DNA from: Sphaerolaimus hirsutus | Taxonomy: Eukaryota > Nematoda > Chromadorea > Monhysterida > Sphaerolaimidae | Direction: 5' to 3' | DNA length: 64,000 nucleotides | Assembly: GCA_964036195.1 (NCBI GenBank) | Contig: OZ038450.1 | Coordinates: 3,722,701 to 3,786,700, forward strand | In this document: positions 11,132 to 42,253 of the stretch, in pieces | How positions within the stretch are numbered: position 1 is the first letter of the stretch | How the letters are laid out: each line of letters opens with the position of its first letter | Translations under genes and position numbers: made by a program | The notes under the pieces: model-generated | The model's database searches: none | What the model saw: only the letters and a program-made list of their open reading frames with translations | Told to the model about the DNA's origin: nothing

Positions 11132-11137
11132 GCGAAG

Positions 11138-13509
11138 TTAAAGCGTTCCTAGGCGCTGTTGGGTTTTTCCGGAGGTTAATTCATAAATGTGCTGAATATG
11201 CCGCTCCCTTGTCTAATTTAACTCGAACAAAAACTGAATTAGGAACTGAAAAGTATAGCGGAAGTACTCCCGTAGATTTAAATGCGAACCCCGCCGCTTT
11301 GGAAGCTTTTAATAAGTTGAAAGTGATGGTGGCTGAGAGTCCCTGTATACAGTATCCTGATCCCAGTAAACCGTTCATAATTATTACCGATGCTTCTAAA
11401 GTTGCATTAGCTGGCATTTTAGTACAGCGCGCTGAACCTGCCGCCGCTTTGCATGCGTGTTCATTTTATAGTCGAAAACTTTCTGAAGCGCAATCCCGAT
11501 GGCCTGCAATTACGCAAGAAGCATGTGCTATTTTTGAGAGCATACGCAATTGGCATTGTTATTTAGCGGGCCGGCCGTTTGAAGTTTGGACTGATGCGAA
11601 AAGTATTTCATGGGTAAAAAATCCAAATTTGGAAACCCATCCCCATACGGGTTTGCACCGATTTGCGCTTGCTATTCAATCATATCAAGTTACTTTTAAG
11701 CATTTGCGTGGGAAAAGTAACGAATTGGCTGATGCTTTGTTGCGCCGGCGTGATGCACCCGTTGAATTTGATGAGCGTGTTAATTTGGACGAAGCGTTTG
11801 AAGAATATGCGTTTGATATACCTGTTGATGAATTGGCGAGAATTTTGACTGAGGAAGTGGCGTTGTTAACATCTGAGGAACATTTGGCATGTCAAGCGGT
11901 AGCTAAGGCCATGGCGCGATTGGCTGCTGCTCAAAATTGGCTGAAACATGCGAAAATGAAGTCTTTGGAACCGTCAGTTACGGTAGCTGCTGAACCGCCA
12001 GTGGCAAGCGTTGCTACTGTGCGGGTGCCGCATCCAATGACAATGCGTGTGCGAAGTAAAACGAAGGCGGAGTCCACTTCTGAAAGTGCTTTGAAATCGC
12101 CGCCCAAAAGTGACGATGCGTCTAAATTAATGGCTGGTGGCCGCCGTTCTGTTCAATTAATTAAGAAACCGGAAAAACTTGATGCTTTACCTCCTCCCAT
12201 TACTCCAATTGAAGAGTTGTCGCGTTTGCAAAAAGAAGAACCGTATATAATTACAATTCGTCGCATGTGTGAGGAATCTACTTTGCGTAGGGCCCCACCA
12301 TTTTTCATTGATCAATTTGATGTGGTTAGGCGTGATGCAGACCCGTCAATATTAGTGGGTGAAAGGAAATACGACCCTGCGTGCATTCCCCAGTCACTAG
12401 TTGTCACTGTGTTAGAATTGGCTCATAATCATCCCACTGCTGGACATTTAGGTGTGATGAAAACGTTTGAAAGATTGCGCGAATTTGCTTGGTTTACAAA
12501 TATGCGTCCAGAATGTGCTAGATGGGTTTCTACTTGCCCTTCGTGCAACGCGAAGAAAGGATTGCGCCGCTCGATGAAAACTCAAATTCAGAGCCGGAAA
12601 ATCGCTAAGTTTCCTGGTGATTTTATTGCGATTGATGCAGTAGGGCCATTGCCAATTACCGAAAAAAGGAATGTGCATGTATTGGTATTTGTGGATCAAT
12701 GTACGCGTTTTGGTTTAGCAGTGCCCGTTCCTAATTTGAAACAAGATACTGTGGCTATTGCGTTTTTGCAACATGTGTTACCGATTTTTGGTGTGCCCGC
12801 TGTAATCTTATCCGACAATGCACCAAGCTTCATTGGCGGCATTTTTGCGGAATTGCTGCGTTATCTAAATACAGTGCAGCATAAGTGTTTCAATTATATG
12901 CCAAAGGGGAATGGTTTGGTTGAGCGTAGGAATGGCGTCTTAATGGAAATAATTTCACATTATGTGAATGGCTCGCATTCGGATTGGGACAAACACTTAG
13001 GCGCCGCTGTCTATGTGTATAATACGTCTATGCACCCCTCTATGAAAGTGACGCCATATGCGTTGCTATTTGGATCAAATTCTCCGTCACTTTGGGAGCG
13101 TATGATCGAGCCGACGGGAAATGGCACCGATAAGACCGATAAGCCGATGGCGTACAGTCCTTTTGTGTCAAATTTAGACGCGCGACTTTCGGACGTCCGC
13201 ACGGCCGCGCATTCGGCTTTACAGCGCGCGCAAGAAAAAGAGTGTTTTTATGCAAATCGCAGTGCGCGTCGCTTGAATTTGAAGCCCGGTCAATCAGTTC
13301 GTGTTTATTCGCCCCGAATTCTTCGAAAGTTAGGCCGCGTTAAGAAATTCACGCATCATTATATTGGCCCGTATGAATGTTTAGATTATGTGCATCCCAT
13401 TGTGACCGTGTTTAATAGGTTGTCTAAGAAAACTTATACCGTTCATGCTGATCGCGTTAAACTGACAAATGAGCCAGTTAATCCCACTTATTCGCAGATT
13501 TTCGGTTAA
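11138..13509 (+). pseudogene. 5'-truncated pol, copy B (RNase H, integrase)
   Basis: This duplicate of pol begins in the RT thumb, lacks RT motifs A to C, and has no start codon at its 5' end; the frame is closed upstream by TAA at the junction. RNase H and integrase domains are complete and end with the GPY region. It differs from copy A by an Arg for His in the integrase E-region near 12925 and Val for Ala near 13015. Without a fused upstream part it is unlikely to be translated, unless from an internal start. Confidence 0.85.
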
Positions 13510-14047
13510 AAACCCTGAGATTTTCCGCTCTTCAACCTAAAGTGCTTCAAGTTAATTATTCCGTTCGAAAATTCAATTAAAATTTATTTTCATTTTTATT
13601 TGGATTACTCGCGTTTAATTCTGACCGTCAATTCGTGGTGAGTTCGGGGTTGCAAATTTGGTATTTTTGATTGTGTGCAAGGTAATTTTGAGGTAAAAAG
13701 TTGTTTTTTATGTAAAAGGTAAAGGTAAAGCGCGAAAATTTTATCGGTGTTATTAATTGTTCGTTTCTAATTATCGCCGCAAGTTTAATTCGTTAGTTGT
13801 TCATACCATCGCATTTATTTTGTTCTAAATTTGTTCTTTAATTTCATTCTCATTTTCACCCATTTCGCAACAAAATAAAAATTATTTTTGGCGCAATACG
13901 TTCAACGTAGTGCGTTGAAAATAATTCGCAACTTTTCGATTAGGGTGTCGCTCAGACCTTCGTGCATTTCGGTGCCGACATTCTGGGTGGCGCATTTTAA
14001 GTAGCAATAAGTTGTGTTTTCCGGTGCTCTACTTTGAAGTGTGAAAT
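13510..14047 (+). promoter_or_regulatory. Spacer and CCGGT box upstream of helicase, copy B
   Basis: Same AT-rich non-coding spacer as 7936-8473, with one A/G difference near 13566. The CCGGT box lies at 14017-14037, 11 nt before the ATG. Confidence 0.55.
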
Positions 14048-17000
14048 ATGACTAGTTCGGGTGGCGTACCTATGGGTGGGTATGGAGCGAGTTCCAGTTC
14101 GTACCGTGGCGGGCGCATAGCCAAAGCGCCGCTCAAGTCGTGGACTTCTCATGGAAAACAGGGCGGTGACACTATTCCGCCGCTGCCCTACAATCCTCCT
14201 CGAAACGCCCGATCGATTTGTCCTGAATTTGTCATCAACCAAAAGTTGTCGGGAATAGTGGATCGAGTTCACGTCGGTAACGAGCAGCGTCCTACCAGTT
14301 ATCAATGCCACATTCGTTTCGACGGCGATGCGCAGGCACTTTTGGAAAGTTATCCGGAGTGGTCGGAAGCGGAAACGGCTTATCCATTTTTCACCTATTC
14401 GGTCAACAAAGCGGAGCGCGCTCGTGAGCGGTCGGTGCAGAAAATTTTGAGGGAATATCGCGAGGCTAACGAAGCCTACGACATGTTTTTGCCGCTTGTC
14501 CGCCACGGCATGCATTTTGTCGCGACTGGTATCAGTAGGGTTAGCGCCAATCCAAAATATTGGGAATTGCGAGGCGTCACCATTATGAAAAATGACGCTC
14601 AAATGCCATTGTTTTTGGGCCGCCCTGTTGTCATTGTTTCGCAAGGACAGGTTGACCTCTCCGTCGATGAGCCAGCGTCGGAAAATTCACAGAGAGGACA
14701 GGAAAATCGCGAAGGATATCATCCTTATCCGGCCAAGTGGAGATATTTGCGTTTGAGGGCAGCGTTCACCCCTTCGCGGTACATTAGTGCACCCCCCTTC
14801 AAAGGCGCCGACGAGCGGGATCCGGGCCCTGAAAAGTTGATTTTTGCGCACAGCGAAAATGTCATGGAAAGTGACATACACCCGCACGCCGGACAATTAG
14901 GTGTGGCGCATGTAGAATATCACGCTTTTGATGACGCCGGCAAAGTCAACAACTTTTATTGGGGTCATGCGTATGGCGTGCGTATTTTTTCGGCGCGGCA
15001 AATTGAGGCTGGTATGGAGTGGAAGGGTGAAATGAATAGAAATTACCTCACCTCTCAGCTGCAGCTCCGTTCCATCTTTTTGGCCGCTGCTAACGTGTGT
15101 CACGAAGCGCATTTGCGATACACTGCGACTAGGGCGAAAGCGGTGCGCGCGCAGGTGACTTGGCAAAATGGGCCGCGGGGATTAATTGCGATAATTAGGT
15201 GGGAGCGCGTGCATTTGAATCCAGCTGCTGCGATGCGCGACACGGCCGAGTGGCACAGGAATAAGGCGCAGGGCTACATGTTGAATTTTACTTCGCCCAT
15301 GTCGTCGCTACAAATCGTCGAAGCTGATCCCCGGGGGGAAGAGCGTGCTCTGACTGGCCGCCCGCAAATAAATTTACGCACGGTCAGCGCCGACATCACT
15401 GCCGAGGCGGTGCAGCTGGTCGCCAAACCGGATGTGTTGGTGCCGCAGGCGCTGTCGCCGCATTTGCTGCCCAATTGCGATTACATGGTGCGCGGTTCCG
15501 CTTTGTCGCCTAGCTACAATGGCCGCATGGAAATTTTGGAGCGGTTGTGCATAATGGGGCCTAGTGGTTACCGGCCAACCGAGAGCAACACCGGAATGCT
15601 CGCTGTGGAAGACCAGGTCAAAATGGCGGTAGTGCTGCACAAGCAGTTGAACCAAGTTGACACTGATTGGCAGCGCACGCTCGAAAAAATTGAGTCTGAC
15701 GGGTTGTATGCCGAGGTGCGCAGAGGCACATGCGAAGATTTATTGCAAGCGCATCAGGGTGATTTTCGGCCGCAGGAGGGGCAGGGGCGTGTGATTGCGT
15801 CAGTTATCAAGTCTGTGTGAAAAACTGCGCCGCTATTGTTGATGTGTGATTCACCGTTCGGTTCCGGTAAAACGACTGTGCAAAGTCAGTGTGCGTACGC
15901 GGTTGCGTTCAAATTTACTGAGAAAAATGACCCGCCGAACCCGCTGAAGAGGGAGTTGCCCTCTGATGCAAACAAAAATGCGCTTTACCACTCCACAATG
16001 ATTACTTGCAGTGTGAATTTGGCCGCTGATGAGTCTGCTAGACGATCGTTGCAAAGTTTGGCGGACATCGGTCTGCCTACTTTGGAAAGGGTCGTGGAAG
16101 TTTTGCTGCGCAGTAGGGAGACGTGGACTGCGATGGATAACAAACCGAATTTCGAAACACCTGGCTATGCGCGTTTTTGTCAGGTGCGCGCTGCTTTCGC
16201 GATTCGCGTGCTGAGTCCATTGTTGGAAGTTGACGATCGCTACGTCAATATGACGCTCCAGCAATTGCCGCTGCTGAATTTGATCGCGCAAAACATGCCC
16301 ATACATGTGATTCGATTGAATGACCACTGGCTAACTGCTTATGAACGCTTTACCGCTCAACGCCATATTTGTGACACTTTGAACGAGATCATCGCGAACA
16401 ATCAGCACCCCGCCGACATTTTCGAAGCCATTCGGTCGCAGTTGCCTTTGGTTCGTTTGTCCATCAACGAAGACGATGAGGATGATTTGGTGCCACTGGA
16501 CGATGGTCAAGAGGAAGGCGTGCAGGCGTGGGGGGCCGCGGCTGGCTTTGTCGATGACAACCAGGTGTGGGGCAAAATTTACAAGCGCGAAATGCGACGC
16601 CTCGTTAGGGTGGCTACTAGGTTGCATAAGGTGGTGTTGAATGTGCTGCAGCCAGGCCAAGTCCATGTGACCTTGGATTCATCGCGCGATAAGCGACTGC
16701 AAGTTTTGAAATATGCCGCGGTGTTTGTGGACGAGGCGTCTCTGGCGGATGAAACTGCCATTTTTGGTGCTGTTTCAAACGCTCGACTCCCCCACAATGG
16801 CTTGGTGCTTTTGTTTGGCGATAGCAAGCAGTTGACCCGAATGGTCAGGCCGCATTCATGGATCGCCCCGATCCTGAAACCTGATCCATCGTTGATCAAC
16901 AGGTTGGTGGAAGGTGTGCTGTGCCCAATTCTGAAGCTCGAGACTGTTTTCCGCGGCCACGACGCGCTGATTCAAGCGAATTCTGTCGCTGCGTACGATG

Positions 17001-20874: not shown

Positions 20875-21554
20875 TCTATTTTTATCCTCGCTTTTGTTCC
20901 CAACCCGATTTTTGGCGCGTGAATTCTTTGTGTTTTTGTGTAGTTGATCGACGTATCCTGTAAGCTGACGCCGTGAATAATTTTAGGTATGCCCGTTTTA
21001 AAATTCCGTGTGTCCGTAAAATCGTTTGTAAGCATGCTTCTCGTGGTATGTGGAAGTGTTGTCTGGACTTGGCTTATGTTGTTGCGTATAAAAGCGTACC
21101 GTAATTTAGAGTAGGGGTCGATTCAGTCGAAATTGCTTCGGTTTCATTTTCTTGGAGTTTTTTCGAAGGTTTTGTGCCGCTGGTTAGAAACTCGCTCTCA
21201 GTGTGTTCCCTGTGTTCTATCTGAATGTGTGAATTCTGAGTCTAAAAATCGCCTAAAATAAAATCTCTTCTAAAAACTTCGGACCCCTTGGTGTAAATTA
21301 GACATTCAACTAATTGCTGGTGCGTTGATAAAAACGCCATTCGCTAAAAAAGCTAACTTAATTGACGTAGCGTACACCTGTGATATTCACTTCGGTGAAT
21401 TCACCATTGTGCGTTGCGAATTCAATCGGTAGTCGCTTTTCCGTTGCCTTACTTTGTCGCTCATCCAACGAGTAGGTGTGAGATCGGTAAAACTTGGCAG
21501 TTTGCCATAGTGGAATTTGGTTGAGTAAAAAGTAGCCGGTGAAAATTCATGACA
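20875..21554 (+). repeat. 3' LTR of element 1 (minimum extent)
   Basis: Matches window bases 1-680 with about two substitutions (17 A/G, 471 T/C). The true start is upstream. TATA lies at 21087-21093, AATAAA at 21257-21262, and the end is ATGACA at 21554. Confidence 0.92.
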
Positions 21555-25232: not shown

Positions 25233-25859
25233 CAGGGGTTTAGTAGGGGGGTACCCCCCCCCCAAATCCGCCAGCTATCTATCTATCCCGGAGGCCCGCT
25301 CAGCTATCTATCTATCCCGGAGGCCCGCTCAGCTATCTATCTATCCCGGAAGCAAAATTTTGGGCTACTATCCCCTAAACCCCCCCCCAATCGGCCAGCT
25401 ATCTATCTATCCCGGAGGCCCGCTCAGCTATCTATCTATCCCGGAAGCGAAATTTTGGGCTACTATCCCCTAAACCCCCCCCCCCCCCCAATCGGCCAGC
25501 TATCTATCTATCTGGAGTGATTTTAAAGAAATTTTGCATCAATTTTCGCTCAAAATCGCTAATTTTCGTACATTTTTATAGATTTTCACATTCAAAATTC
25601 TAATTCATGTTCCGTATTGCCTATTTTCAGCTATTCTTTGTACTATATGTACTTATATACCTATTTTTAGCTGTTTTTCTCCTACTTTTAGCGATTTTTT
25701 CCCCTTTCCTTCCTTCTATACCTCGGAAAAACCTATATTGAACCCCCGCGACCCCCCCCCCCCAACCCCCCCTCCAATTTTTTTTCTATCTATCCCTCCG
25801 GAGGAGCGATTTGCTATCTATATGAACCCCCGCGGGGGTCCAAATCTACAAAACCCCTG
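25233..25859. mobile_element. hAT-like word element (TATCTATC core), TSD GTGTGATC
   Basis: Ends CAGGGGTTTAGTAGG and CTACAAAACCCCTG are inverted. The 8-bp GTGTGATC flanks both sides (25225-25232, 25860-25867). The core repeats AGCTATCTATCTATCCCGGAGG units and poly-C runs. It lies 17 bp after the gene 1 stop and may be in its 3' UTR. Confidence 0.88.
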
Positions 25860-29200: not shown

Positions 29201-30946
29201 AAATTTTACTATTTTCCTCTGATAGATTGCTGGAGCGAAATAGGACTTCAATTTTAATGAAATATAATTTTTATCAATCAACTTGTAACCGTTCACTCAA
29301 ATTGTTCTTTCAGCGGGCCGGCCCAGTGGGTTTGGCAGTCAGATCGAACGGGAGTGCAAATGCCGGTAGATCGAAATATCCTAAACTGAAACGTGTTCGT
29401 AATCCTGAAAGGCGACACCAGTGTTCTCATTGTGGTTAGATTTTTTTCGTCCATTGTTGTTGATGTCGCTGCATTTTATGTCCGTTAAAATCTGTGATTA
29501 AAATGTAAGGCGGCTTTACACGTTTTTCTGTGACGACAAAAATGTTCTGTACTTATACCCTTCTTTTGTCTTGAAAATTGCAAATTAGACTTAGGTGATG
29601 CCTCGATTTTAATGACCAGGTGCCTCTGTGCACGTAAACCTGGCGTACATGTAGACCCGTCGCGCATGTAAATGTACATGCGCGCCGGGTAGACATACAT
29701 CCGCGCCAGGTTTACATTCACAGAAGGCCTACGTCATCTTAATCAGCTTAGTTCACAAAAAAAACGTCAAAAAACGCCTAAGGCTATAAAAACACGCAGA
29801 GAAGTCGTTCATGCAAGTGGGCCACTTGAAGCAGCATCTCCTGGTGCACGTTGGGAGAAGGGAGTTTCCGTGCCCGGTGCACATGTGCAACAAAACGTAC
29901 AAATGGCGCTACGACCTCAATAGACATATAAGGACTTATCATCCCTATGAGGTAGGTTTGGTGCGTGACGCGTTTAGGGTAAATATGTTCGATCTGTTGT
30001 TTTTTAATGTTAATGATTTGCTTCAGTGTAATTGTTAGTATAAGCGTCGTTGGCCCCAAATTTATCCCTCGAAACTTTTGAATTTTCTTTGGTGTCAGGA
30101 TTGTTCAATGACTAGCGATAGGAATTACGGGAAAACTTTTGTATATTTTTTAACGGATTCTATAGATTGTAGCAGAAATCACAAATTGTCTGCCTTCTAC
30201 ATTTTGCTACATTAAAAAGCCAATATATTGAACGCCCCAGTGAATTTTTTTTCAAACTATATATCCCTACTTAGTAGTGATTTACGATCTATTTATCTGA
30301 CCCCCCTCGGGGGTTCAAATCTACAAGACCCCCGATCCACTCCAAAATTCACCACGTCAGGCGGACCAACATTTAGAGCGAACAGAGGGTAGTGAAACGC
30401 CGCGTATTTCTGCTAGCGCGGGCATTTCGCAATATTCCCAGTCTCCGCTTGAAAACAACGCTGATGCAGTGTTGACTGAAAATTCTAATGAAAATTCAAA
30501 TTCGGAGAATGTTGAATCTACTGAAAGTGTGCCTGAAAATGGGTTGGATGATGTGCCGCTATTGGTGTCGGTGGCGAAAAAGGTGCGATTTTTGTTTTGA
30601 TATACTCGGCGGACAGCACACCTAGTATGGAAACCTACCATAATTTAATGAGTAAAATATTGTGATAAATTTTTGAAATTAATTGTTCCATAGTAAAAAC
30701 TAAATATTATGATGAAAAAACTGTAAAAAATTTGGTTCATTATTCGGATGGGTTATGGTAGGTTTCATACTAAGTGTGCTGTCCGCCGAGTATACATTTT
30801 GACTAATTTTAGTTGTTGTTTTTTGATTAGGAAAATCTAATTCTGATTTTTTGCAGACTTGTCCGATGGAAAATGGGATCGATGCCGTTTCAGAGGTTCC
30901 TATTCGCAAGATTCATAATGTTGGTTCAGTGCCGTGTGATTGGTGA
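26263..30946 (+). CDS. C2H2 zinc-finger protein, gene 2 (7 exons)
   Basis: Exons 26263-26418, 26774-27004, 27958-28152, 29314-29434, 29800-29951, 30361-30582 and 30857-30946 join in frame for 388 aa. Only the 29434/29800 junction is phase 1; the rest are phase 0. Exon 3 carries one C-x2-C-x12-H-x3-H finger. Exons 4-5 form a split C-x2-C finger (intron directly after the second Cys) and a C-x4-C-x12-H-x4-H finger. Exon 6 is Asn/Glu/Ser-rich and possibly an activation region. The C-x2-C then C-x4-C pair also occurs in genes 1 and 6, so these are probably paralogs. Introns are filled with word elements and MITE family M. Target DNA is unknown. Confidence 0.78.
26578..26756. mobile_element. TIR element with GGTACGGTACCGTAA core
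   Basis: TAGGGTGGC and GCCACCCTA ends enclose repeated palindromic words (ACGGTACCGTAA). It lies in intron 1 of gene 2. No clear target duplication was found. Confidence 0.55.
27242..27675. mobile_element. hAT-like element, TSD ATCCAGCA, with GGCGCC-palindrome insert
   Basis: Inverted ends CAGGGACGTATCCAGG and CCTGGATACGGCCCTG are flanked by ATCCAGCA at 27234-27241 and 27676-27683. At about 27335-27430 the core holds interleaved GGCGCC and CCATGG palindromes. It lies in intron 2 of gene 2, and a decayed relative lies in gene 1 intron 3. Confidence 0.85.
27811..27914. mobile_element. Short word element with AAACGTTT core
   Basis: Ends TAGGATTGGCC and TTCAACCCTA resemble those of 31619-42743. 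The core is repeats of AAACGTTT/AAAAAACG. No clear target duplication was found. Confidence 0.5.
28236..28480. mobile_element. MITE family with CGTTGGAAGCGTGCCAATGAT arms, copy 1
   Basis: ACGTTGGAAGCGTGCCAAT near 28288 and TTGGCACGCTTCCAGCG near 28429 are inverted arms. Relatives lie at about 47125-47345 and 50145-50345. Confidence 0.6.
28656..29104. mobile_element. hAT-like word element (TATCTATC core), TSD ACTTTGAG
   Basis: Ends CAGGGGTTTAGTAGG and CTACAAAACCCCTG are flanked by ACTTTGAG at 28648-28655 and 29105-29112. It is in intron 3 of gene 2. Confidence 0.88.
29610..29730. repeat. GCATGTA-word repeat in gene 2 intron
   Basis: Words such as GTACATGTAGACCCG and GCATGTAAATGTACATGCG alternate in both orientations between AGGTGCCTCTGTG and CACAGAAGGCCT. 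Similar words recur near 44520 and 44870. Confidence 0.45.
30225..30345. repeat. Decayed TATCTATC-type element end
   Basis: CCCCCCTCGGGGGTTCAAAT and TCTACAAGACCCC match the right end of 25233-25859. It ends shortly before exon 6 of gene 2. Confidence 0.5.
30601..30794. mobile_element. MITE family M, copy 2
   Basis: The cleanest copy: TATACTCGGCGGACAGCAC to GTGCTGTCCGCCGAGTATA. It occupies most of the last intron of gene 2. Confidence 0.9.
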
Positions 30947-31046
30947 ATGCAGTTTGGATTGATTTTTTACAGTGCAAGCTGTCATGCCTGCAATTGAGGC
31001 GAATGTTAATCGGACTAAACGATTTTTCCTGGCTTAAAAGTATCTC

Positions 31047-31474
31047 TTAAGGGTCGTTTACACGGTTTCGTGTGCCGACAAAAAAGTTACGCAAGAAAGT
31101 TCCATAATTCCGGAATAATATTCCGTATCTGCGGGAAAAGCCAGTGAAGTATACTCATTAGTTAAGTTTACACACATGCCAATTTGCATATAATTTGAGC
31201 CTGTCGTTCAAAACTTATTTGCATTTGAAGATGAATTTCAGTTGTCGGTTTGGTTTCAAAACGAAAACCGAACCGACAACTAAAATTCATTTTCAATTGC
31301 CTATAATTCTTGAACAACATGCTCAAATTATCTGCAAATTGGCATGTGTGTACACATAACTAGTGAGCACAATTCACCGTTTTTTCTTGCATATATGAAA
31401 CTTAATTCCAGAATTATGGAACTTTTCCACCAAACTTTTTTGTCGGCACACGAAAGCGTGTAAACGCTGCTTTA
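31047..31474. mobile_element. MITE with TTACACGGTTTCGTGTGCCGAC ends
   Basis: The left arm (GTTTACACGG...GTGCCGACAAAAAAGTT) and right arm (ACTTTTTTGTCGGCACACG...GTGTAAACG) are inverted. Internal arms CAGTTGTCGGTTTGG and CCGAACCGACAACT form a second palindrome. Confidence 0.75.
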
Positions 31475-31801
31475 GCTGCGTTGACACTGTCACTTTTTTG
31501 TGCCGACAAATTTTTTTCGCTTTCATGTCATGAAAATTGAATATTTGTTGTGTCGGACGTCTTACATCTCGATTCTCGATCAACCTTTTTGATCAGAACA
31601 AACAAACAATTTCACATATAGGGTTGGCAAGCGTTTTTTTTAAAGCGATTTTTTTTTTAATTCCGATTTTTTTTTTTTAAATCGCAGCACCCGTACCGAT
31701 TTTTTTTTTAAAATCGCTGGCAAAAAATGTTGGTACTCAAGCACTGGGTAAAATGCAAAAATTTTGCGCGCAAGCGCGCACTTTCATGCAAACAATCCAT
31801 C

Positions 31802-31941
31802 TGTTAAGTCCTTGATAAGTGATATCACTTCGTGATGATGATTTTTCCTTATGATGTCTTATTTAAATGTATCATCCAAGTAATCCGCACGATGCGACGA
31901 GCCGAATAAACGTGAATAACTTCAATGGCTTCACGTTAACA
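31802..31941 (+). repeat. 5' LTR of element 2
   Basis: A 140-bp TGTTAA...TTAACA repeat. It includes the palindrome AAGTGATATCACTT, a TATTTAAAT TATA-like site and an AATAAA signal near the end (GCCGAATAAACG). It is unusually short for a gypsy LTR. Confidence 0.95.
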
Positions 31942-31943
31942 AC

Positions 31944-31961
31944 TGGTGGACGAGCAGCACT
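31944..31961 (+). other. Primer binding site of element 2
   Basis: TGGTGGACGAGCAGCAC follows the LTR after a two-base AC spacer. The tRNA was not identified. Confidence 0.65.
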
Positions 31962-31998
31962 CGCAGCTAAAGTCTTTTTTTAAAGACACGTCGCACAA

Positions 31999-34900
31999 AT
32001 GTCGTCAAAAAAGGTAAATACCACTCGCACGAGTGATGCCACTAAAGGTAGTGATGCCACCACAAATGGTGAGGAAAAACATTCAAATAATGCCACCATT
32101 GGTGATGCCGCTGACAGCGATGCCGCTATAATTAGCGAAGATACCACTCCATGGAGTGATGCCGCAGATAGCGATGCCATGCCTCGACATGATGCTACCA
32201 TAAATGGTAATGCCACCAAATTATCGGGTGATGCCAGCTCAGCTGAAGATACCACCAGGTATATGTTGAATACCACCATTACCGGTGATGCCGCAAAAAT
32301 TAGCGAAGATACCACGAATGCCACCACAAAGGGTGATGCCGCAAACGTTAGCGAAGAACCACAAGGTTTAGCGGGCATAGCCGCATTAGCATCAAGGGTA
32401 ATGCTAGGGGAGAATCACCCGATGGTTCTACAAGGGAAAAATCCATTAATTTCGGCAAATACTAGAAGCAAAAAACGTTCAGTAATGCCGCCGGGATTTA
32501 CAAATGAAGATTTTTGGGCACAAAAATATACGGAAATATCGAAAAACAGCCAAAAACAACATGTAACCAAGCCACAAATGGCTACACCGGACATACAGGA
32601 TAGCAGATCCTCCATTCCCATTGCACAAGTGACAACTACGTTTCCCTCCCCAACCAAGTCCACGATACCAATGGACCAAGTGACACAGTTGATAGAACAA
32701 CTGCAAGTGAACTTGACAAAGATGTTCACCAAGCAAATTCATGACATGAACACAACCTGGGCAAATATCCACGAAGAACATAAGTCCACTGCACAAGTCA
32801 TGGACTTACGACTCTCGGAATTGGAAAATCACATGGCAATTGTAACGGATCAGGTGTCCATGTTGTCATCGTCATCTCTGCCAAACTACGAAAACACGAA
32901 AAAAACAGTTTCTGCCAAACCAACAAATGAACTGGCTTTTCAACCACTGTCACAACAGGAAGTCATGCCAGTGAAAACAATCATGTCCAATAGTTCTGAA
33001 CCCTCCATGATCATGGGCACGCCACTACCTACACTGCTTCACACAATCCCAGTATTTAAAGGGGAAAAGCAAAATTTCAAAGACTGGAAGGAAACTGTAG
33101 ACCAGCATCTGTTCATGTTGCCCCAAGGGAGCGTAACCCAATTTTGGAACATAATTTTCAGGGTAAAGTTAGAGGGCTCAGCAAAAGAATTGTTCAAGTC
33201 ATTTACAAAAGAACAAAAAAGCGACTACGAATTTGTCCTATCAGAATTAGAAACGACGTATAAAACACATGGGTTGAGATTGCCTGTTGATAAGTGGGAA
33301 AAATTAGTCCAGTTTGAAGACGAATCATGCATTAAATTCTGTACGAGAATTATGAGTAAAGTGCCAAACGAGTACATCAAATTACTGCCAGACGAACAAA
33401 GAAAAACATTGATTCTGATGCGATTTCTCAGAGGCATCCAGTTAGAACGTTTTGACAAATCGGTGATTTTTGACCTGCATCTGAAAATTCAAAATGGGGA
33501 AGTAATTGAGCCAAGACATGCAGCTCAGATACTGGATGAATATCTCTTCAATTTGGAACGTTTGGGCTATAAGGCACGAAAACAATTCACAGTGGAAAAT
33601 AAAACATACACTAGCAACAAGTTTAGTGGAAACGTGCAAAAGAATAATTCAAGCGAAGGATATCCCAAATCCAATGACAAGTACTCGCGGTCTCAGAATC
33701 GAAATGATCGGTCTTCAAAATGCACCACATGTGGTAAATTTGGGCACAGAGCCAATAATTGCTGGTCAGGAACAACAACCACAAAACCACAACCCCCCAC
33801 CGCTGGATTTATGGGTGTGAAACGAATTGGCCCCGCAGCAACACATAATAGTTCAATGCCCGCACAAGAACGAAAACCAATGAAGGGCCCACTGTCAAAT
33901 TCGGAAGACAAGAAAAAATATCCAAATACAGTGTATACCTCAGAAACACCGGAAATGCACCTGGGATCAGAAGATTCAGAAGAGGAAAATACAGGTTATT
34001 CAGTGTGGTACATTTTCCAAATCATAATACTCATAATAAAATTTTTAATTTGTGAATTTATCCCTGCACAGAAACCAGCAATCAAGATGGTATTGAAGAA
34101 AATGGGACCGAGCCTGAACAAGAAAACGAAACTGATGAAAAGGATACTGAGCAACATTTTGGCCTGCATGTTCAAACTATCCCAGGATTTGAACAGGATA
34201 CGGATGATTCTGAATGATTTTCTGAAAAACGCTGTCTATAAAACAACTGATTATATTAATGTCTCCACCGAAAGATTGAAACTAGATGAACTAGCTAGAA
34301 AGAAAAACAGATACACTCGGAAGTGGAAAAAACATTCAAAATTTAGAAAAATAAAATATGTAGCACCAATCATAAATCGGCCTGACATTATTTCGACTCA
34401 AATCGAAATTGAAAATCAGCCAGTGACAGCATTATTAGACACAGGCGCTACTAAATCGGTCATGTCTATTCAAAATTTAAAGAAAATTCTACAGGCAGCA
34501 AAATTAGTCCCAGAAAATTATTTGAAAAATATAAACACCATCATTTATCATGCGTCAGGGCACACACTTCCAGGACAAATAAAAAAAGCATTTTTGAACA
34601 TCTCTCACACTGATATTTATGGAAAAAAAGTGAAAGCAGTCTTACCGTTCCTAATAAATATGACAAAACAAGCATCAAACCATATCTTGTTAGGCATGGA
34701 CATTTTACCAAAACTGAATGTCATACCAGACATAGTGAAAGCGTTTAATAGAGTAAACACTCTGACTCAGGTTCAAGCTCCTAAACAACAGAATAAATTT
34801 TGCATTTTCCCAGCACAAAAAACTACACTAAAAGCAAATACAGTAACTTCCATTCCTGCATACATAAACGGATGGGAAAATGGTTTGCAAGGAATTTGTC

Positions 34901-37900
34901 GGTTCCAATCATTGTCCTCCAGGAATCCATGGCTAGAAGCAATGGATATCAGTATTCCATATAAAATTGAATTACCACTGAAAATTTGGGTAATGAATGC
35001 TTCCACATCTGACATAGTTGTGAAAAAATCATTCAAAATGGGAAAATTCTTCACAGCAGATAAAATTCATAGGGATATAAATTTTATAAATTCTGCTGTG
35101 GAAAATCCAATACCACCAGATTTCAAACCACCTCAACCAGATTTCCCAACCAATCCAGTTGAACGAGCTCAATTTATTCTGGAAAACTTGCCCCAGAAAA
35201 ATATCATACACTTAACTACACATGAAAACAACAAATTCAAAAATTTAATAACTAAATTTCATGATATATTTAGTTGTGGTGAATTTGATGTAGGGTGTAC
35301 TTCTTTAGTGGCACATTACATCAACGTAGATCCATCACAAAAGCCAATAAAACAAGCAGTTAGATATGAGGCACCCCATAAAAGACCTTATATCGTAGAC
35401 ACCATTGAACAAATGCTAGCCAGAAAAATTATTGAACCCTGTGATAGCCCATGGGCCAGTCCAATCACAGTAGTCAGAAAAGGTGAAAATGATTGGCGCC
35501 TAACTGTCGATTACCGATTGGTCAATAATATTTCTAGAGTTCAATCCTATCCATTACCTCAAATAGGTCACATATTAACAGAATTTGCAGGTAGAAAGGT
35601 ATTCAGCAGTTTGGATTTGAAACATGGATTTTATAACCTCCCTTTAGGAAATGAAAAAACGAAAGACATCACAGCATTTGTTTGCAGTTTAGGCCAATTC
35701 CGATTTTTACGGTGTCCAATGGGTGCAAGTGGCAGCCCAGCATCCTTTCAGAGACTGATGAATATAATGTTAAGGGGATTAGTTGACAACCCAGCTAGAC
35801 CGTGGTGTCGCACTTACCTAGATGACATTCTTATCACCAGTGACAGCGCCTCCGAACATTTAATACACTTAGAAAAATTGTTTCAAAGAATTAGATGGGC
35901 AAATTTAAAGTTGGGACCTAAGAAATGTCTATTTTTGGTAGAAAAATTGAAGTATTTGGGTCATGAGATTAGTTCCACCGGAATAAAACCGGCCTTCGAT
36001 CGAATAAAAGCAGTGTTAAGCCAAGACAGGCCGGAAACATTACAAGATCTAAGAAGATTCTTAGGGAAAGTAACTTATTTCAGTCACTTCATCCCAAAAT
36101 ATGCAAATATTGCTGCATCTCTATACAATGCCATTTCGTCAAAATTTCCTAAAAAAGGAAATACACCCTGTCTCTGGGACGAAACAATGACAGTAGCTTG
36201 GGAAACGTTAAAACGCGCCCTCACACAAGCCCCATGCCTAGCCCATCCTCGATATGATGGCACAGAATTTATACTCCAAAGTGACGCTTGTAAATATGGG
36301 ATAGCGGCAGTTTTACTACAAAAAGGTGAATTTGACAATAAAATTCATCCAATAGCATTTGTAAGCAAGCGCGTACATGCAGAGTACAAGCAATGGAGCG
36401 CGGCGATGCTCGAAGCACTAGCAATCGCCTGGAGCTTACGCAGACTATCTCCCATAATAGAAGGACAAAAAATAGTGATCCAAACGGACAACTCCGGAAT
36501 AGTTCAAGCGTATAAGTCCCCGCATCACAGTATTCTTGAGCGCTGGGCTATGTACCTTCAAAATCGAATTGTAAGAATTGAACATCGGTCAGCACACTTT
36601 AACAAAATAGCGGACCAATTAAGTAGAGCACCTATTGAAGATATTGAGTCAGATAATGACAAGGATTTAATTGAAGCAGGGGAATTAATTGATTCCCTAC
36701 CACACCTAACTCCACAAATGGAAAGTATAAATGCATTGACAATGAATAAATCAAATGAAAATAGCTCACAATTAATTCCAGATAATACCACAATAAATTT
36801 TTCCTGGAGCAATGAACAAAATAAAGACCCAGAAATTGTGAAATTTAAAAATTCAATGAAAAATGGGAAAATATTCGAAAATGCAATACTACAAAATGAT
36901 GTTTTGTACATTTTGTCTCCACATCAAACACAACAATTTGTTATTTGGATTCCGTCCCACCTACAAGCATCATTCCTGGCTCAAGCACATGCAGGACTAT
37001 ATGCAACACATGGAGATCCGTCGGCAACTCTAGCCTTACTAACACAATTTGGCGCGTGGCCAAAAATGAAACAAGATATCATCAAATTTTGTGAAAAATG
37101 CTCTAATTGCCATGAAATGAAGCCGCATGTGCATGGCAGAGCAGCATTGGGAATCACTCTCACTCCAGGAACTCCTTTCCATACCATACATTTGGATTTG
37201 ACAGAGTTGCCAAATTTCAAAGGTAACAAATATCTACTAGTCGTGGTAGATGCATTGTCCAGATATACAATTACCATTCCATTGAGATGCCATACAGCAG
37301 CGTCCATTTGTAAATTACTGCAGGAACGCGTTTTTGCCATATTTGGCCCACCAGCATTTTTGATAACAGACAATGCTCCAGAATTTTTGGGGAAAAATTT
37401 CGACATTTTCATGAATCAATGGAACATTAAGCATATAACTGGCCAAACATACCACCCCCAGACCAACGGCATTGCAGAGAGAACAATCAGATCGCTGTGT
37501 ACAATTTTACGAATAGTGCTTAAAGAGCATAGTTCTAAAGATTGGCCGCATTATGCCTCTCTGGCTGCATTGAAATTAAATATGAAAGTACATTCAATTT
37601 CTCGAAAACCTCCATTTTTAATGATCTTTCATAGATTACCAAAGTTCAACCAATTCACAGCATCGATGTTTACAACTGAAAATCCACAAAAAAGTTGGCG
37701 AACAGCCAAATTATTAACCGATATAGCCAAGCAAAAATATACCAACTGGTTCAATAAATCCAGAAAAGTTTCGATCACAGATAAATTTAAAACTTCGGAT
37801 ATCGTTTTAAAAAAAGAATTTTCCCACGGAAAATTGGCAGCGGTATATACAGGACCATTTAAAATTCTGAAAATAAAAAATAATTTAGCTGTTCTTTCAC

Positions 37901-38058
37901 CAACAACAGAAAAAACTGAATCCAATAGTAAAACGAACGCAAATAATAAAAGTAAAGCGCATAATCAACCGGATGCCGAAATCACTTCGCGCCTTGAGTT
38001 ACTTTACAAACTCCCTCTAGCAGACAGTGAAAAAGAAAAAACTGAACTTAATTCCTAA
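31999..38058 (+). CDS. gag-pol: Intact Gag-Pol polyprotein (2019 aa), element 2
   Basis: A single frame starts at ATG 31999, 57 bp after the LTR. The first 120 codons are a degenerate repeat of GDA and EDTT words with N-glycosylation-like NAT sites. A gag region follows, with a CCHC knuckle (33721-33762). A hydrophobic segment (about 34000-34060) precedes the protease, which has LDTGAT near 34437 and LLGMD near 34687. RT has LDLKHGF at motif A and YLDD near 35816. RNase H acidic residues lie near 36280, 36405 and 36487. Integrase has an HHCC finger (about 36990-37110) and a DDE core (IHLDL, TDNAPEF, NGIAER). GPF near 37850 marks a Ty3/gypsy chromodomain-side tail. All catalytic residues I can see are present, so the element is potentially autonomous. 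Confidence 0.93.
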   Translation: MSSKKVNTTRTSDATKGSDATTNGEEKHSNNATIGDAADSDAAIISEDTTPWSDAADSDAMPRHDATINGNATKLSGDASSAEDTTRYMLNTTITGDAAKISEDTTNATTKGDAANVSEEPQGLAGIAALASRVMLGENHPMVLQGKNPLISANTRSKKRSVMPPGFTNEDFWAQKYTEISKNSQKQHVTKPQMATPDIQDSRSSIPIAQVTTTFPSPTKSTIPMDQVTQLIEQLQVNLTKMFTKQIHDMNTTWANIHEEHKSTAQVMDLRLSELENHMAIVTDQVSMLSSSSLPNYENTKKTVSAKPTNELAFQPLSQQEVMPVKTIMSNSSEPSMIMGTPLPTLLHTIPVFKGEKQNFKDWKETVDQHLFMLPQGSVTQFWNIIFRVKLEGSAKELFKSFTKEQKSDYEFVLSELETTYKTHGLRLPVDKWEKLVQFEDESCIKFCTRIMSKVPNEYIKLLPDEQRKTLILMRFLRGIQLERFDKSVIFDLHLKIQNGEVIEPRHAAQILDEYLFNLERLGYKARKQFTVENKTYTSNKFSGNVQKNNSSEGYPKSNDKYSRSQNRNDRSSKCTTCGKFGHRANNCWSGTTTTKPQPPTAGFMGVKRIGPAATHNSSMPAQERKPMKGPLSNSEDKKKYPNTVYTSETPEMHLGSEDSEEENTGYSVWYIFQIIILIIKFLICEFIPAQKPAIKMVLKKMGPSLNKKTKLMKRILSNILACMFKLSQDLNRIRMILNDFLKNAVYKTTDYINVSTERLKLDELARKKNRYTRKWKKHSKFRKIKYVAPIINRPDIISTQIEIENQPVTALLDTGATKSVMSIQNLKKILQAAKLVPENYLKNINTIIYHASGHTLPGQIKKAFLNISHTDIYGKKVKAVLPFLINMTKQASNHILLGMDILPKLNVIPDIVKAFNRVNTLTQVQAPKQQNKFCIFPAQKTTLKANTVTSIPAYINGWENGLQGICRFQSLSSRNPWLEAMDISIPYKIELPLKIWVMNASTSDIVVKKSFKMGKFFTADKIHRDINFINSAVENPIPPDFKPPQPDFPTNPVERAQFILENLPQKNIIHLTTHENNKFKNLITKFHDIFSCGEFDVGCTSLVAHYINVDPSQKPIKQAVRYEAPHKRPYIVDTIEQMLARKIIEPCDSPWASPITVVRKGENDWRLTVDYRLVNNISRVQSYPLPQIGHILTEFAGRKVFSSLDLKHGFYNLPLGNEKTKDITAFVCSLGQFRFLRCPMGASGSPASFQRLMNIMLRGLVDNPARPWCRTYLDDILITSDSASEHLIHLEKLFQRIRWANLKLGPKKCLFLVEKLKYLGHEISSTGIKPAFDRIKAVLSQDRPETLQDLRRFLGKVTYFSHFIPKYANIAASLYNAISSKFPKKGNTPCLWDETMTVAWETLKRALTQAPCLAHPRYDGTEFILQSDACKYGIAAVLLQKGEFDNKIHPIAFVSKRVHAEYKQWSAAMLEALAIAWSLRRLSPIIEGQKIVIQTDNSGIVQAYKSPHHSILERWAMYLQNRIVRIEHRSAHFNKIADQLSRAPIEDIESDNDKDLIEAGELIDSLPHLTPQMESINALTMNKSNENSSQLIPDNTTINFSWSNEQNKDPEIVKFKNSMKNGKIFENAILQNDVLYILSPHQTQQFVIWIPSHLQASFLAQAHAGLYATHGDPSATLALLTQFGAWPKMKQDIIKFCEKCSNCHEMKPHVHGRAALGITLTPGTPFHTIHLDLTELPNFKGNKYLLVVVDALSRYTITIPLRCHTAASICKLLQERVFAIFGPPAFLITDNAPEFLGKNFDIFMNQWNIKHITGQTYHPQTNGIAERTIRSLCTILRIVLKEHSSKDWPHYASLAALKLNMKVHSISRKPPFLMIFHRLPKFNQFTASMFTTENPQKSWRTAKLLTDIAKQKYTNWFNKSRKVSITDKFKTSDIVLKKEFSHGKLAAVYTGPFKILKIKNNLAVLSPTTEKTESNSKTNANNKSKAHNQPDAEITSRLELLYKLPLADSEKEKTELNS

Positions 38059-38357
38059 AGAACTGAATGAACTTAAATCAGCAACAATCAACCAGTAATA
38101 AAAAGAAAATAAACTCAAGGGCATCACTTTCAAGAAAACATAGGTAAATTTAACAAAATCTGCGCCCCAAAAATTATTTGAAAAAAGTATGCGCCCAAAA
38201 TTATTTAAAAAAACGGAATTTGGAATTTTTTATGGCGCCGGATACTCAATTATTATCAAAAACTAACAAAGTATGCGCCCAAAATTATTTAAAAAACGGA
38301 AATTGAATTTGGAATTTTGGAATTTTTATGGCGCCGGACACTTAATTACCCAAAAAA
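38059..38357. repeat. Tandem repeat between pol and antisense gene
   Basis: Two units of about 90 bp begin GTATGCGCCCAAAATTATTT and end TATGGCGCCGGA(T/C)AC (about 38189-38345), with a partial third unit before them. No ORF is seen. It separates convergent 3' ends and may hold polyadenylation signals for both. Confidence 0.6.
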
Positions 38358-40113
38358 CTAACGCGAGGGGCCAGCCACACTACTGCTAATGCGGGCACCC
38401 CCAGAAACCAAAACGTCACCGCGAATACTGCCATAATATGGATGCTCTGAGAAAACATAAGCGCAGTGAAAATTAATGAATAATTTTGAAAAAATAAATA
38501 TATAATATTTTTTCAAAATCATCTTACCCGCTGGATTCGCCACAGCCACCGGTAATGTATCCCAACAGCGGTTAGCGCGGGCCTCCTCAAGGAACGGAAT
38601 CATTGCAATTCCGCGAATTCGAATCTACGGGCATAAATTGGCAAAAATCCAGGGAAAATAAATCATTTTTAAATCCGCGCCCCAAAAAAACAACAACACA
38701 AACACACCGCCACCGGGGTTTCCTCATGCCCGCCCGGCACACTCCGGCCATTTTCTCGCAGCAAATGAGCAAATCGGCCTACGGGTTCACGTTGAACATC
38801 TTCATAGTCCACACAAAGCTTGGACTGCCCATCGGCGTTCCGATCGAAACTAAGTAGTTCGAGAGCAGAATAGGCGGACTGGCTCAACGGGGGGCGCGTG
38901 CGGCCACGATTGAACATCGCACGCGATCTGAAAATGGACATGAATAGATTTTTAAATCGTCAACTCATCGTTAACTCAGATCGGGTCAACTCAAACGGAA
39001 AACGCAGAATTCATAAGCTCAAATCTTATTTCCAATAGAGTAAACACAACTGAAACCAATATGTTAAAACGCCACAGCGAATAAAGCCAAACCAAATCAA
39101 AACCCCACACCACAGACTAACAAGTCGCCAAAAATTTTAACGCCGCACAGCTTGACCATGTCGATCTCGTTGTGCAGGCCGCTAGCTCGGCGCGCCTTCA
39201 GGCCCTCCAATATGGCACTGATAGTATTCGGCGATCCTCCAAGCTCACCGGGCAGTGAATCGCGAACAATTGACACCTGCAAATTTGAGTGTCAGCCAAA
39301 AAATTTGAGTGGAAAACTAGACATCAAATTATTAGCCAAACGGCTCAGGAAAATAAATTAAAAACAAAAACGAAAAAAGAAAACAGAAAAAGTCACATAC
39401 CAAGGCACCTTCCTTTTGAAATCCACTCTGAGGGATTTGGAGACCAACAGTGCCCAGGCGCACATTTTTCATAAAATCGTACACCCGGCGAGCGTTCGCG
39501 TTGTCGCACCCCTCGCACTCACAGATCGAAAATTGTAATTGACCGGGCAAAAAGTGCGAAAAATTGTTTTCAGCCCGAAAATTCATCATCTCCTGATCAT
39601 CACTTTCGTAATAAGCCTGAAATCAGAAGACATTTTTGTACATAGAAAATTACAAAACAGTAAACTTCACAATTATGTCAAATTTGAGACAAAAAATATC
39701 CAACTTGAGACAAATTTAAGGAAAAAAATAGGTCTACTATAAATAAATATTCTAACCAAAATCTGATGATCATCAGGGCGCTCCACACGACCGTCCGGGT
39801 GCAGAATGACTTCGGGGGGGCAGGCGCGGTGACTAAACGAAAAAATGATCACATTTATGTGATCATACAGCTTCTCCTCCACTTGGTACCAATTGTGGCC
39901 ATTCAACATCCCCGTAAAATCGTACGTTTGATGGAACTGAGTCTGAAATAGAAAAACTACGTTGATTAAAAAAATTGGAACACTGCCAACAATCAGAAAA
40001 CAAACTGTTAAACCAACGACATTCAAATCAGGCATCTCAAACGGACGCAACACAGAAGGCCTGTGATCGAATCGAGAGCGGTAGGGCAACGGTCGATCGC
40101 CAGCAGCAGCCAT
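38358..40113 (-). CDS. Antisense spliced cargo gene N (7 exons, 351 aa), unknown function
   Basis: On the minus strand exons 40113-40021, 39942-39757, 39616-39401, 39276-39122, 38927-38708, 38624-38528 and 38446-38358 join in frame (phases 0,0,0,2,0,1). Each has GT donor and AG acceptor, mostly TTTCAG. TTTTATTTTCAG ends one base before the ATG, as at a spliced-leader site. No family is recognised. Exon 3 has a Cys cluster (CECEGC near 39500), and exon 4 a helix-rich stretch. No signal peptide or membrane segment is seen. It is antisense to gag-pol, so its introns cannot be removed from the genomic RNA and survive retrotransposition. It is neither a shadow of pol nor env-like. Confidence 0.78.
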
Positions 40114-40467
40114 TCTGAAAATAAAAAAATTTTGTACATAAAACAAAAAAATTGAAAGTATATCGCGTCTAACACCGTGTATCGCGTCTAATACCTAACA
40201 TATACTCAATGTGTGTTTTTTACACACTTCACAAACTAAAAACCATATAAAAGGTTATCAATAAAACGCATGCTAACTTTGATGTGGGAAAATTCAACGC
40301 GGACCAATGACAGACACACGCCAACAGTTCGAATTTGGATACTTCCTCATAAATCGGTACTAACAAAATTCTCCGGTAACTTCCGATTTTTATGGTATGT
40401 AAAACAGTACATACGACAACTAACACTCTAAAAAATCCGCATAAAAAACCCTGGAACAATAAACGAA
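40114..40467. promoter_or_regulatory. Divergent promoter region between cargo genes
   Basis: The 354 bp between the two ATGs hold a repeated TATCGCGTCTAA word (40160-40194), a TGTGTGTTTTTTACACAC hairpin (about 40210) and a plus-strand TATATAAAAGG-like site (CATATAAAAGGTT near 40244). Position suggests internal promoters independent of the LTR. Confidence 0.5.
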
Positions 40468-42082
40468 ATGTTTGCTGCGTGTAGAGCCGCGGGCGAAATT
40501 GTGAAAAAATTGTTCCAAGGATTTTGCGGATACCACGCAAACTTTTTGCGCCGCTGCACAATTTGCACGGCACATTTGGAAGGACTTGCAAATGCCGTAA
40601 CAAAGACTGAACAAGACTACAGGGAATTGACGCAGAAATACACCGAATTACAGGTCATTTGCAAACTACCGCAAGTAAGAATGTAAATACACAAAAACCA
40701 AGTTATGAAAATCCATCTGTAGGTATTGCACTGCAAAGCCCTACAGCAGTTGAGGGACTTTGGCTACACGGACCCACTTCCAGTGTCCCAGGTAGTAAAA
40801 TAAACCCCTCAACTAACTTTTTTACTCAAAATTTTACCAGAAAATAAAACCAAAAAGAAAATCTCACATATGAAGGTCGGCGTGGTAGACTTCCTGACGC
40901 GCACCGACCAATTGAAAAATGCACCCATTTCTGGGGAGTTGGTCAACCGAAATGAAAATCAGCATTTCAAGCAGCCACGGGGCAGATACTACGACCACCG
41001 CCCACGCCCATATTACAGGGGAAATAGGGGTGCAGGGCGTTCGGCACCCAGGGGATACCCCAGGGGAAAGTTTTGGGCCGAAAGTGTGACAAATGTTAGA
41101 TTTAAAAAAAGTTTTTGTTAACAAGCAGTTCTAGTGCTAGACATTAGAAAATTTCAGAATTAGAAAATTCATTAAAATTCAGGAAAATTTCAAAATTACA
41201 AAAGTAAATTATTTAATATGATTTCTGATCGAAAAAAAAGAAAATTATACTATTTCACCTAACAGATCACAATAATTATTCAAGAATATATTTGACAGAT
41301 ACATGGACAGCCAACACCACTGGCGTCATCTACACCGTCGCCGTCGGCGGTGACCTCAGATGGAAATGGATCGAAACATCCCGACATGTTCGAAGCTGCG
41401 GTGGCAGAAGCAACAAAACGCATTGAAGAAAAAATGCAGACTTCAATGGCAAACACAACCGGGGCTTCAGTGGTCAACAAATTGACTAAAATGGATCTGG
41501 AAAAGGAAAAGGGAACTCAGGAAACTGGTAAAGTGGGAAAGTATCCACCAGGTGTCTTCACTTTACCAAACGCTGGAGACGAAACAAATAAGAATATCGA
41601 AGCTTTCCTGGTTCCGGAAATAGAAAATGCCGGAGATAATACCATTGCAAATGTGTCCAATTTCCTGGGTCTCCTACCAGAGGCGCCACTATCTCCATTA
41701 GGCAGTGAGATTTATTCTAGTTTACTCGTTTTCTAACATGTTTACTAGTTTTCAAACTTTTTCTCAGGGTTCGACAAAAAGTTATAATAAAAATAATAAA
41801 ACCATTTCACTCAAAAATCAATAGTCATAAATCATAATTTATTTCATTCAATATATGGATAAAAAAAAGTATAAAAATCACTAAATTATCCAGTAAAAAT
41901 TCTGTTTTAAATAAATTATCTTCATTAAGGATATCAGTAACATTTAATATATACTTTCTTCTCATACAGATTCCAAAGGGCCGGGCAGCAGCAAAGGAAC
42001 CGAAATCGGCGGAAATAAATCGAATCAGATTTGCGCCACGGACAACGGATCTACACCCAAAGAATCTGACAATGCCAATTAG
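40468..42082 (+). CDS. Sense spliced cargo gene P (5 exons, 337 aa), RG-rich, unknown function
   Basis: Exons 40468-40674, 40723-40791, 40876-41094, 41299-41704 and 41970-42082 join in frame (phases 0,0,0,1). Intron 1 is only 48 bp (GTAAGA...TGTAG). The acceptor of exon 3 (ATATGAAG) is weak, so that boundary is least sure. Exon 1 has paired cysteines (CTIC) and a helical, coiled-coil-like end. Exon 3 ends in an Arg/Gly/Tyr-rich stretch resembling RNA-binding RGG tails (about 40978-41070). Exons 4-5 are Ser/Thr/Asn-rich with a possible short helix. The stop lies 31 bp before the 3' LTR. Sense introns inside an LTR element imply unspliced genomic RNA or recent capture. Confidence 0.7.
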
Positions 42083-42113
42083 ATATGCGGTTCAAAAGTT
42101 AAAAGGTTGAATG

Positions 42114-42253
42114 TGTTAAGTCCTTGATAAGTGATATCACTTCGTGATGATGATTTTTCCTTATGATGTCTTATTTAAATGTATCATCCAAGTAATCCGC
42201 ACGATGCGACGAGCCGAATAAACGTGAATAACTTCAATGGCTTCACGTTAACA
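42114..42253 (+). repeat. 3' LTR of element 2
   Basis: Base-for-base identical to 31802-31941. The purine-rich AAAAGTTAAAAGGTTGAA just upstream is a weak polypurine tract. CCATC follows at 42254-42258. Confidence 0.95.

Follow-up and report, generated by a model that had tools for sequence, protein, structure and literature searches.

The stretch of Sphaerolaimus hirsutus DNA analysed here (contig OZ038450.1; 64,000 nt, called the window, in whose numbering all positions are given) contains a Ty3/gypsy-type long terminal repeat (LTR) retrotransposon at 31802-42253. Between its gag-pol frame and its 3' LTR, this element carries a predicted antisense gene divided by introns and, diverging from it, a predicted sense gene. 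Coding and splice statistics establish the antisense gene together with its introns; the sense gene is established in part, with two core exons and at least two exons overall. The two genes, called the cargo below, probably travelled with the element, judging from their place between identical LTRs in the one copy examined. We read them as a resident accessory module in which a sense export or packaging factor and an antisense modulator would be divergently transcribed, perhaps to regulate the element in the manner of the accessory genes of complex retroviruses; the functions are those that we infer, and the reading is given a probability of about 0.42.

The element has the following parts outside the cargo.

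31797-31801, no strand: left target-site duplication, CCATC, read directly and matching the right flank
31802-31941, plus strand: 5' LTR, 140 bp, TGTTAA...TTAACA, identical to the 3' LTR at 140/140 bases
31944-31956, plus strand: possible primer-binding site, TGG two bases past the 5' LTR, read directly
31999-38058, plus strand: gag-pol, a single frame of 2019 amino acids, identified from the open reading frame (ORF), Pfam and 70 relatives
32014-32015, plus strand: candidate splice donor of the leader, following gag codon 5, rank 1 of the 369 GT sites between the LTRs
42114-42253, plus strand: 3' LTR, 140 bp, TGTTAA...TTAACA, containing AATAAA
42254-42258, no strand: right target-site duplication, CCATC

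The LTR ends (TG..CA) and the short target duplication are those of Ty3/gypsy (Metaviridae) elements, and the Pfam domains of gag-pol stand in the Ty3/gypsy order of protease, reverse transcriptase, RNase H and integrase (residues 801-908, 1160-1324, 1393-1521 and 1651-1820). A possible polypurine tract, AAAAGTTAAAAGG, lies 7 bases upstream of the 3' LTR. The identical LTRs and the exact 5-bp target duplication described in an earlier note on this DNA were thus found as claimed, and because the LTRs are identical, the element was inserted recently, gene conversion aside. A search with the pol part found 70 relatives, which share 22-36% identity with it. An organism is named for 10 of them: 5 animals, 2 fungi, 1 oomycete, 1 plant and 1 entry catalogued as bacterial. 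The animal relatives are from Cordylochernes (a pseudoscorpion, two entries), Saccostrea (an oyster), Mytilus (a mussel) and Caenorhabditis auriculariae (a nematode). No gag-pol relative was confirmed in viral contigs, whether gag-pol was the query by itself or was aligned with 8 of the 70 hits. The GC content of gag-pol is 0.39. Scans of the 64-kb window detected no tRNA and no Rfam match. A long inverted repeat at 31046-31475, with 211-nt arms that are 81% complementary, lies a short way to the left of the element.

The cargo was scored with a gene finder written for this analysis, a dynamic-programming procedure that takes the codon use of the window's retroelement ORFs and splice matrices as inputs. 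The matrices are generic ones, not derived from the host genome. Codon use was trained on element 1 (a second Ty3-type element, at 1-21174 of the window) together with gag-pol, on element 1 alone or on gag-pol alone. The controls were 26 windows (13 overlapping positions on both strands) and 20 Markov sequences.

The antisense gene runs from an ATG at 40113 to a stop at 38358 and encodes 351 or 349 amino acids, depending on the exon-5 donor.

40113-40021, 39942-39757, 39616-39401 and 39276-39122, minus strand: exons 1-4, from coding and splice statistics
38927-38708 (or 38714), 38624-38528 and 38446-38358, minus strand: exons 5-7, from coding and splice statistics
38155-38348, plus strand: imperfect direct repeats beyond the antisense stop, spaced 84-96 bp from copy to copy

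Eight donor combinations were tested, and two of them, one exon-4 donor with either exon-5 donor, gave a translation free of internal stops; the other six break the frame. The predicted frame was the best of six in 7/7 exons with the codons of element 1 plus gag-pol and the best of the three own-strand frames in 7/7 exons with those of element 1 alone. Of the seven acceptors, including one just before the ATG, six are among the 9 best of the 160 AG sites on the minus strand; that of exon 6 is weak (-2.0). Half of the six donors score well (ranks 1, 3 and 5 of 283), and donors 1, 2 and 4 are weak. Unaided, the gene finder chose exons 2-7 exactly; its exon 1 reached to 40006, and it placed one more short exon upstream. 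The score of this model was 58.2, compared with at most 23.5 in the 26 control windows and at most 2.9 in the 20 Markov sequences. After training on element 1 alone the score was 83.6, and the controls reached at most 28.7. The support for the antisense gene is conditional on codon use like that of element 1, and this condition is reasonable. The 351-amino-acid gene of seven exons proposed in the earlier note stands, with a clean translation and a doubt over its intron 1; its tally of eleven exons for the two genes was miscounted, since seven and five make 12, with 10 junctions.

The GC content is 0.53 in the antisense exons and 0.31 in the introns. Segmentation by GC isolated antisense introns 2, 3 and 6 (3/6) and introns 2, 3 and 4 (3/4) of the sense model in the earlier note; this is weak evidence, as three control stretches were cut as well. 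The reality of antisense intron 1 (39943-40020, 78 nt) is doubtful: it has no in-frame stop and the worst donor (-4.4), while its GC (0.32) and codon score are intron-like. If retained, it would encode a hydrophobic stretch of 26 residues with a hydropathy of 2.66, compared with at most 1.86 in stop-free stretches of the other five antisense introns. A transmembrane or membrane form is therefore possible, and it is kept as an alternative only, because the codon score and GC of intron 1 are those of an intron. Immediately before the ATG stand TATTTTCAG and one A; this acceptor is the best on the minus strand and may belong to an additional 5' intron or serve in trans-splicing. TTTTCAG just before an ATG resembles the splice and trans-splice habits of nematodes.

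The features of the divergent region and of the sense gene are as follows.

40114-40467, no strand: divergent region, 354 bp from antisense ATG to sense ATG, putative promoter
40158-40195, no strand: upstream of the antisense ATG, two 19-nt repeats in tandem with TATCGCGTCTAA in common
40244-40254, no strand: TATA-like CATATAAAAGG, read directly, a sequence resemblance
40468-40791, plus strand: 5' part of the sense gene, uncertain, with two readings that overlap
40870-41094, plus strand: sense core exon with an RG-rich segment, starting at 40870, 40876 or 40841 depending on the model
41299-41704, plus strand: sense core exon and best supported sense exon, codon score 0.26 per codon, best of six frames
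41768-41787, plus strand: last sense exon in an alternative reading, its acceptor strong (6.5)
41970-42082, plus strand: last sense exon of the earlier model, GC-rich, frame not the best of six

The 354-bp interval and its TATA-like site were confirmed as the earlier note had given them. The 12-mer TATCGCGTCTAA has only two exact matches in the window, both in the tandem repeats. For the 5' part of the sense gene, either an ATG at 40468 with an intron at 40675-40722 or an acceptor at 40623 in another frame can be read. With the default intron cost the gene finder returned, on the plus strand, 40870-41094 and 41299-41736 only; other settings gave other ends. The default score was 26.9, compared with at most 23.5 in the controls and at most 3.4 in the Markov sequences. 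After training on gag-pol it rose to 42.9 with several other exons, against controls of at most 3.2, a score behind which A-rich composition may stand.

The seven sense models that were tabulated are all free of internal stops. Four of them begin in gag, with codons 1-5 or 1-23, and are spliced from the two gag-leader donors, which the generic matrix places first and third among the 369 plus-strand GT sites. The mean splice-site score ranged from 0.73 for the 337-amino-acid model of the earlier note to 2.47 for leader donor 32069 joined to 40841. Several in-phase splice models thus fit the predicted sense gene, and none is unique. The 337-amino-acid model of five exons is in phase, and its exons 3 and 4 hold; its ends fail, the acceptor of exon 3 at 40876 scores -3.3, and the frame is the best in 3/5 exons.

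Base composition bears on how long the cargo has resided in the element. A exceeded T in 20/20 consecutive 500-bp windows from 31999 to 41998, with a skew of 0.04 to 0.34 that was at least 0.15 in 17 of the 20; among flank windows, 1/63 had an A-over-T skew of at least 0.15. At fourfold sites the plus-strand counts of A and T were 335:146 for gag-pol, 42:18 for the core of the sense gene and 46:18 for the antisense gene, and the three do not differ (P = 0.94 for homogeneity). Set against the reverse bias of the element 1 ORFs, that of the sense core marks adaptation to this element. In the sense introns of the earlier model, A likewise outnumbers T on the plus strand (264:199, P = 0.003); most of the excess lies in introns 1-3 (157:99; 107:100 in intron 4). 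This speaks for long residence of the sense exons and introns, with copying through unspliced RNA, and against a very recent capture. Where the earlier note left a choice between regulated splicing and very recent capture, the evidence favours regulated splicing; capture is not needed, because the A-over-T bias spans the sense gene with its introns and the strongest plus-strand donor lies at gag codon 5.

For the antisense protein, no Pfam, PHROGs or NCBIfam family was found up to an expectation (E) value of 1, so that it has no TRP28 domain, and no relative was found up to E 10 among 5.8 billion proteins, in a search that reaches only relatives sharing short exact words. Its seven matches among PDB sequences (E 0.32 and above) were taken as noise, and viral contigs and genome contigs gave nothing usable. 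The 337-amino-acid sense protein matched no protein up to E 10 (1641 candidates from the 5.8 billion), and three sense segments matched Pfam and PHROGs entries only at E of at least 0.029, the Pfam ones below the cut-offs. Compared with gag-pol and element 1, the cargo proteins gave no match below E 0.56. Membership of either protein in the CERV, aORF-3R or HBZ families is not claimed, because no relative of either was found.

In the resident module that we propose, the RG-rich sense protein would be made from spliced sense RNA, starting either at the gag-leader donor 32014 or at an internal TATA promoter, and would aid the nuclear exit or packaging of unspliced genomic RNA, as CERV does for Cer1. 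The antisense protein would be expressed from its own putative promoter in the divergent region and would restrain or tune the sense programme. The antisense introns would persist as the copied RNA is the sense strand, and the sense introns as the copied RNA is unspliced. The element would be a natural example of introns passing reverse transcription in reverse orientation.

Several results weigh against this reading. Both cargo genes are predictions from sequence, and these searches found a homologue of neither protein. Two patterns were tried on the 337- and 351-amino-acid proteins, one for an export signal and one for a zipper of four leucines, and neither matched. The TATA-like site and the tandem repeats are no more than resemblances in sequence, and the ends of the sense gene vary among models. 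Training on element 1 gave a best plus-strand model of 6.4, below the control maximum of 28.7. Training on gag-pol only loses the antisense gene: the predicted frame is then the best of three in only 4/7 exons, and the best minus-strand model scores 2.7, lies elsewhere in the cargo and is below the control maximum of 3.2. The background codon model was drawn from the same flanks that served as controls. The antisense skew is ambiguous, being equally explained by an element-1-like codon habit, because the ORFs of element 1 likewise have more T than A when read in their own direction (4/4 segments tested, e.g., 30:70).

In a doubtful alternative, the antisense gene is a captured host gene or fragment, taken up in reverse (antisense) orientation through read-through and template switching and now a passenger, and the sense gene alone is the element's own. 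The antisense codon use resembles that of element 1's ORFs and not that of gag-pol, the acceptors are T-rich and of the ordinary animal type, and exon GC is 0.53 against 0.39 in gag-pol. A captured passenger fits poorly, however, with the openness of every antisense exon and with the lack of any relative in the short-word search up to E 10. The plus-strand A:T bias also extends to the antisense introns (332:152) and third positions (118:41), although T-rich introns and T-ending codons would be expected to produce the same bias. Later insertion of the cargo, outside the moving unit, agrees with the examination of the element in one copy only; it is very improbable, as the identical LTRs leave little time for it and the strand bias of the element runs on through the cargo.

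A sense product that is a third protein of structural or env-like type, and not an RNA-export regulator, is distinctly unlikely. By eye, its RG-rich stretch could be a nucleocapsid-like RNA-binding part, but the three sense segments had no Pfam match at the cut-off, and the best (E 0.029) was to an unrelated phage domain. The least probable explanation is that the frames are open by chance and that one or both strands carry no real extra gene. The sense score of 26.9 is only narrowly above the control maximum and falls far below it under element-1 training, its rise under gag-pol training may reflect A-rich composition, and the antisense gene is lost under the latter training. Chance does not account for an antisense score far above all controls in both trainings that include element 1.

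Elsewhere in the window, element 1 has near-identical repeats at 1-300 and 20875-21174 and a PNMA-like gag (E 1.9e-05, just under the Pfam cut-off). Its extra downstream ORFs encode 590 amino acids (no Pfam family) and 925 amino acids (AAA_12 helicase domain, weakly like yeast NAM7/UPF1). Inside element 1, a 5574-bp tandem duplication at 5560-16707 shows 13 mismatches, of which 6 fall within the final 7 bases; it is either real or an assembly fault. A C2H2 zinc-finger-like exon at 29811-29978 on the plus strand, with a zf-C2H2 match below the Pfam cut-off, perhaps belongs to a host gene. Arrays of CAGCTATCTATCTATCC-type repeats occupy 25252-25542, with scattered copies near 28.7, 51.3 and 54.5 kb.

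Accessory genes outside vertebrate retroviruses are poorly understood, and the closest sense layout is that of Cer1 in C. elegans. Its CERV is expressed from a spliced five-exon mRNA with exons 1-3 in the frame of gag, is required for export of unspliced genomic RNA and has no obvious homology outside nematodes (PMC10309623). The predicted sense gene here would be similarly laid out, a putatively spliced gene between pol and the 3' LTR. CERV shares gag exons, whereas such sharing is a possibility here, and the word "antisense" occurs 0 times in the main text of that source, whereas the present element has an antisense gene. No relative of the sense protein was found up to E 10 among the 5.8 billion proteins, in a search that included no direct comparison with CERV.

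Antisense accessory genes in the literature consulted are plant ORFs and deltaretroviral genes. Plant Retand elements have antisense ORFs (aORF-3R) downstream of pol, in a region of 2.9-6.6 kb before the 3' LTR that holds tandem repeats in about half of the elements (PMC11963269), and gene23 of Grande is antisense with its own promoter (PMC7264820). A long region between pol and the 3' LTR (4.06 kb here), an antisense gene past pol and tandem repeats are common to these elements and ours. "Intron" occurs 0 times in either source, whereas the antisense gene here has predicted introns. Retand proteins have a TRP28 domain, unlike the antisense protein here, and the hosts are plants, whereas animals predominate over plants (5 to 1) among the 10 named pol relatives. 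Bdelloid rotifer LTR retrotransposons likewise have extra genes 3' of pol, diverse ORF3 genes that are typically expressed from spliced messages; several types have recognisable domains, unlike the cargo proteins, and in that source "antisense" occurs once, for small RNAs, and "intron" is absent (PMC5408684). The literature yielded no LTR retrotransposon of an animal in which an antisense gene has multiple introns, a weak result of narrow multi-term queries that left subscription journals mostly uncovered.

HBZ of human T-cell leukemia virus (HTLV) is an antisense gene that has a spliced form and lowers Rex-mediated export (PMC10186651). Like the gene predicted here, HBZ and APH of the deltaretroviruses are antisense, spliced and part of a retroelement, and their partners are sense regulators that are spliced as well. 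HBZ is driven from the retroviral 3' LTR, whereas the antisense ATG here lies 2 kb inside and is followed by five or six predicted introns. A complex-retrovirus-like circuit of this kind, with a spliced sense export factor and a heavily intron-split antisense regulator at a shared divergent promoter, might have evolved independently in an invertebrate Ty3/gypsy element, which we consider unlikely on present evidence. In that case the antisense protein would mark the integrated state, its introns being removable only from antisense RNA transcribed off DNA copies. A multi-intron antisense gene in such a recently inserted element would also test whether LTR retrotransposons evolve HTLV-like paired sense and antisense control. 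In its layout, the element at 31802-42253 appears to combine a CERV-like sense gene with an antisense gene placed as in HBZ and aORF-3R.

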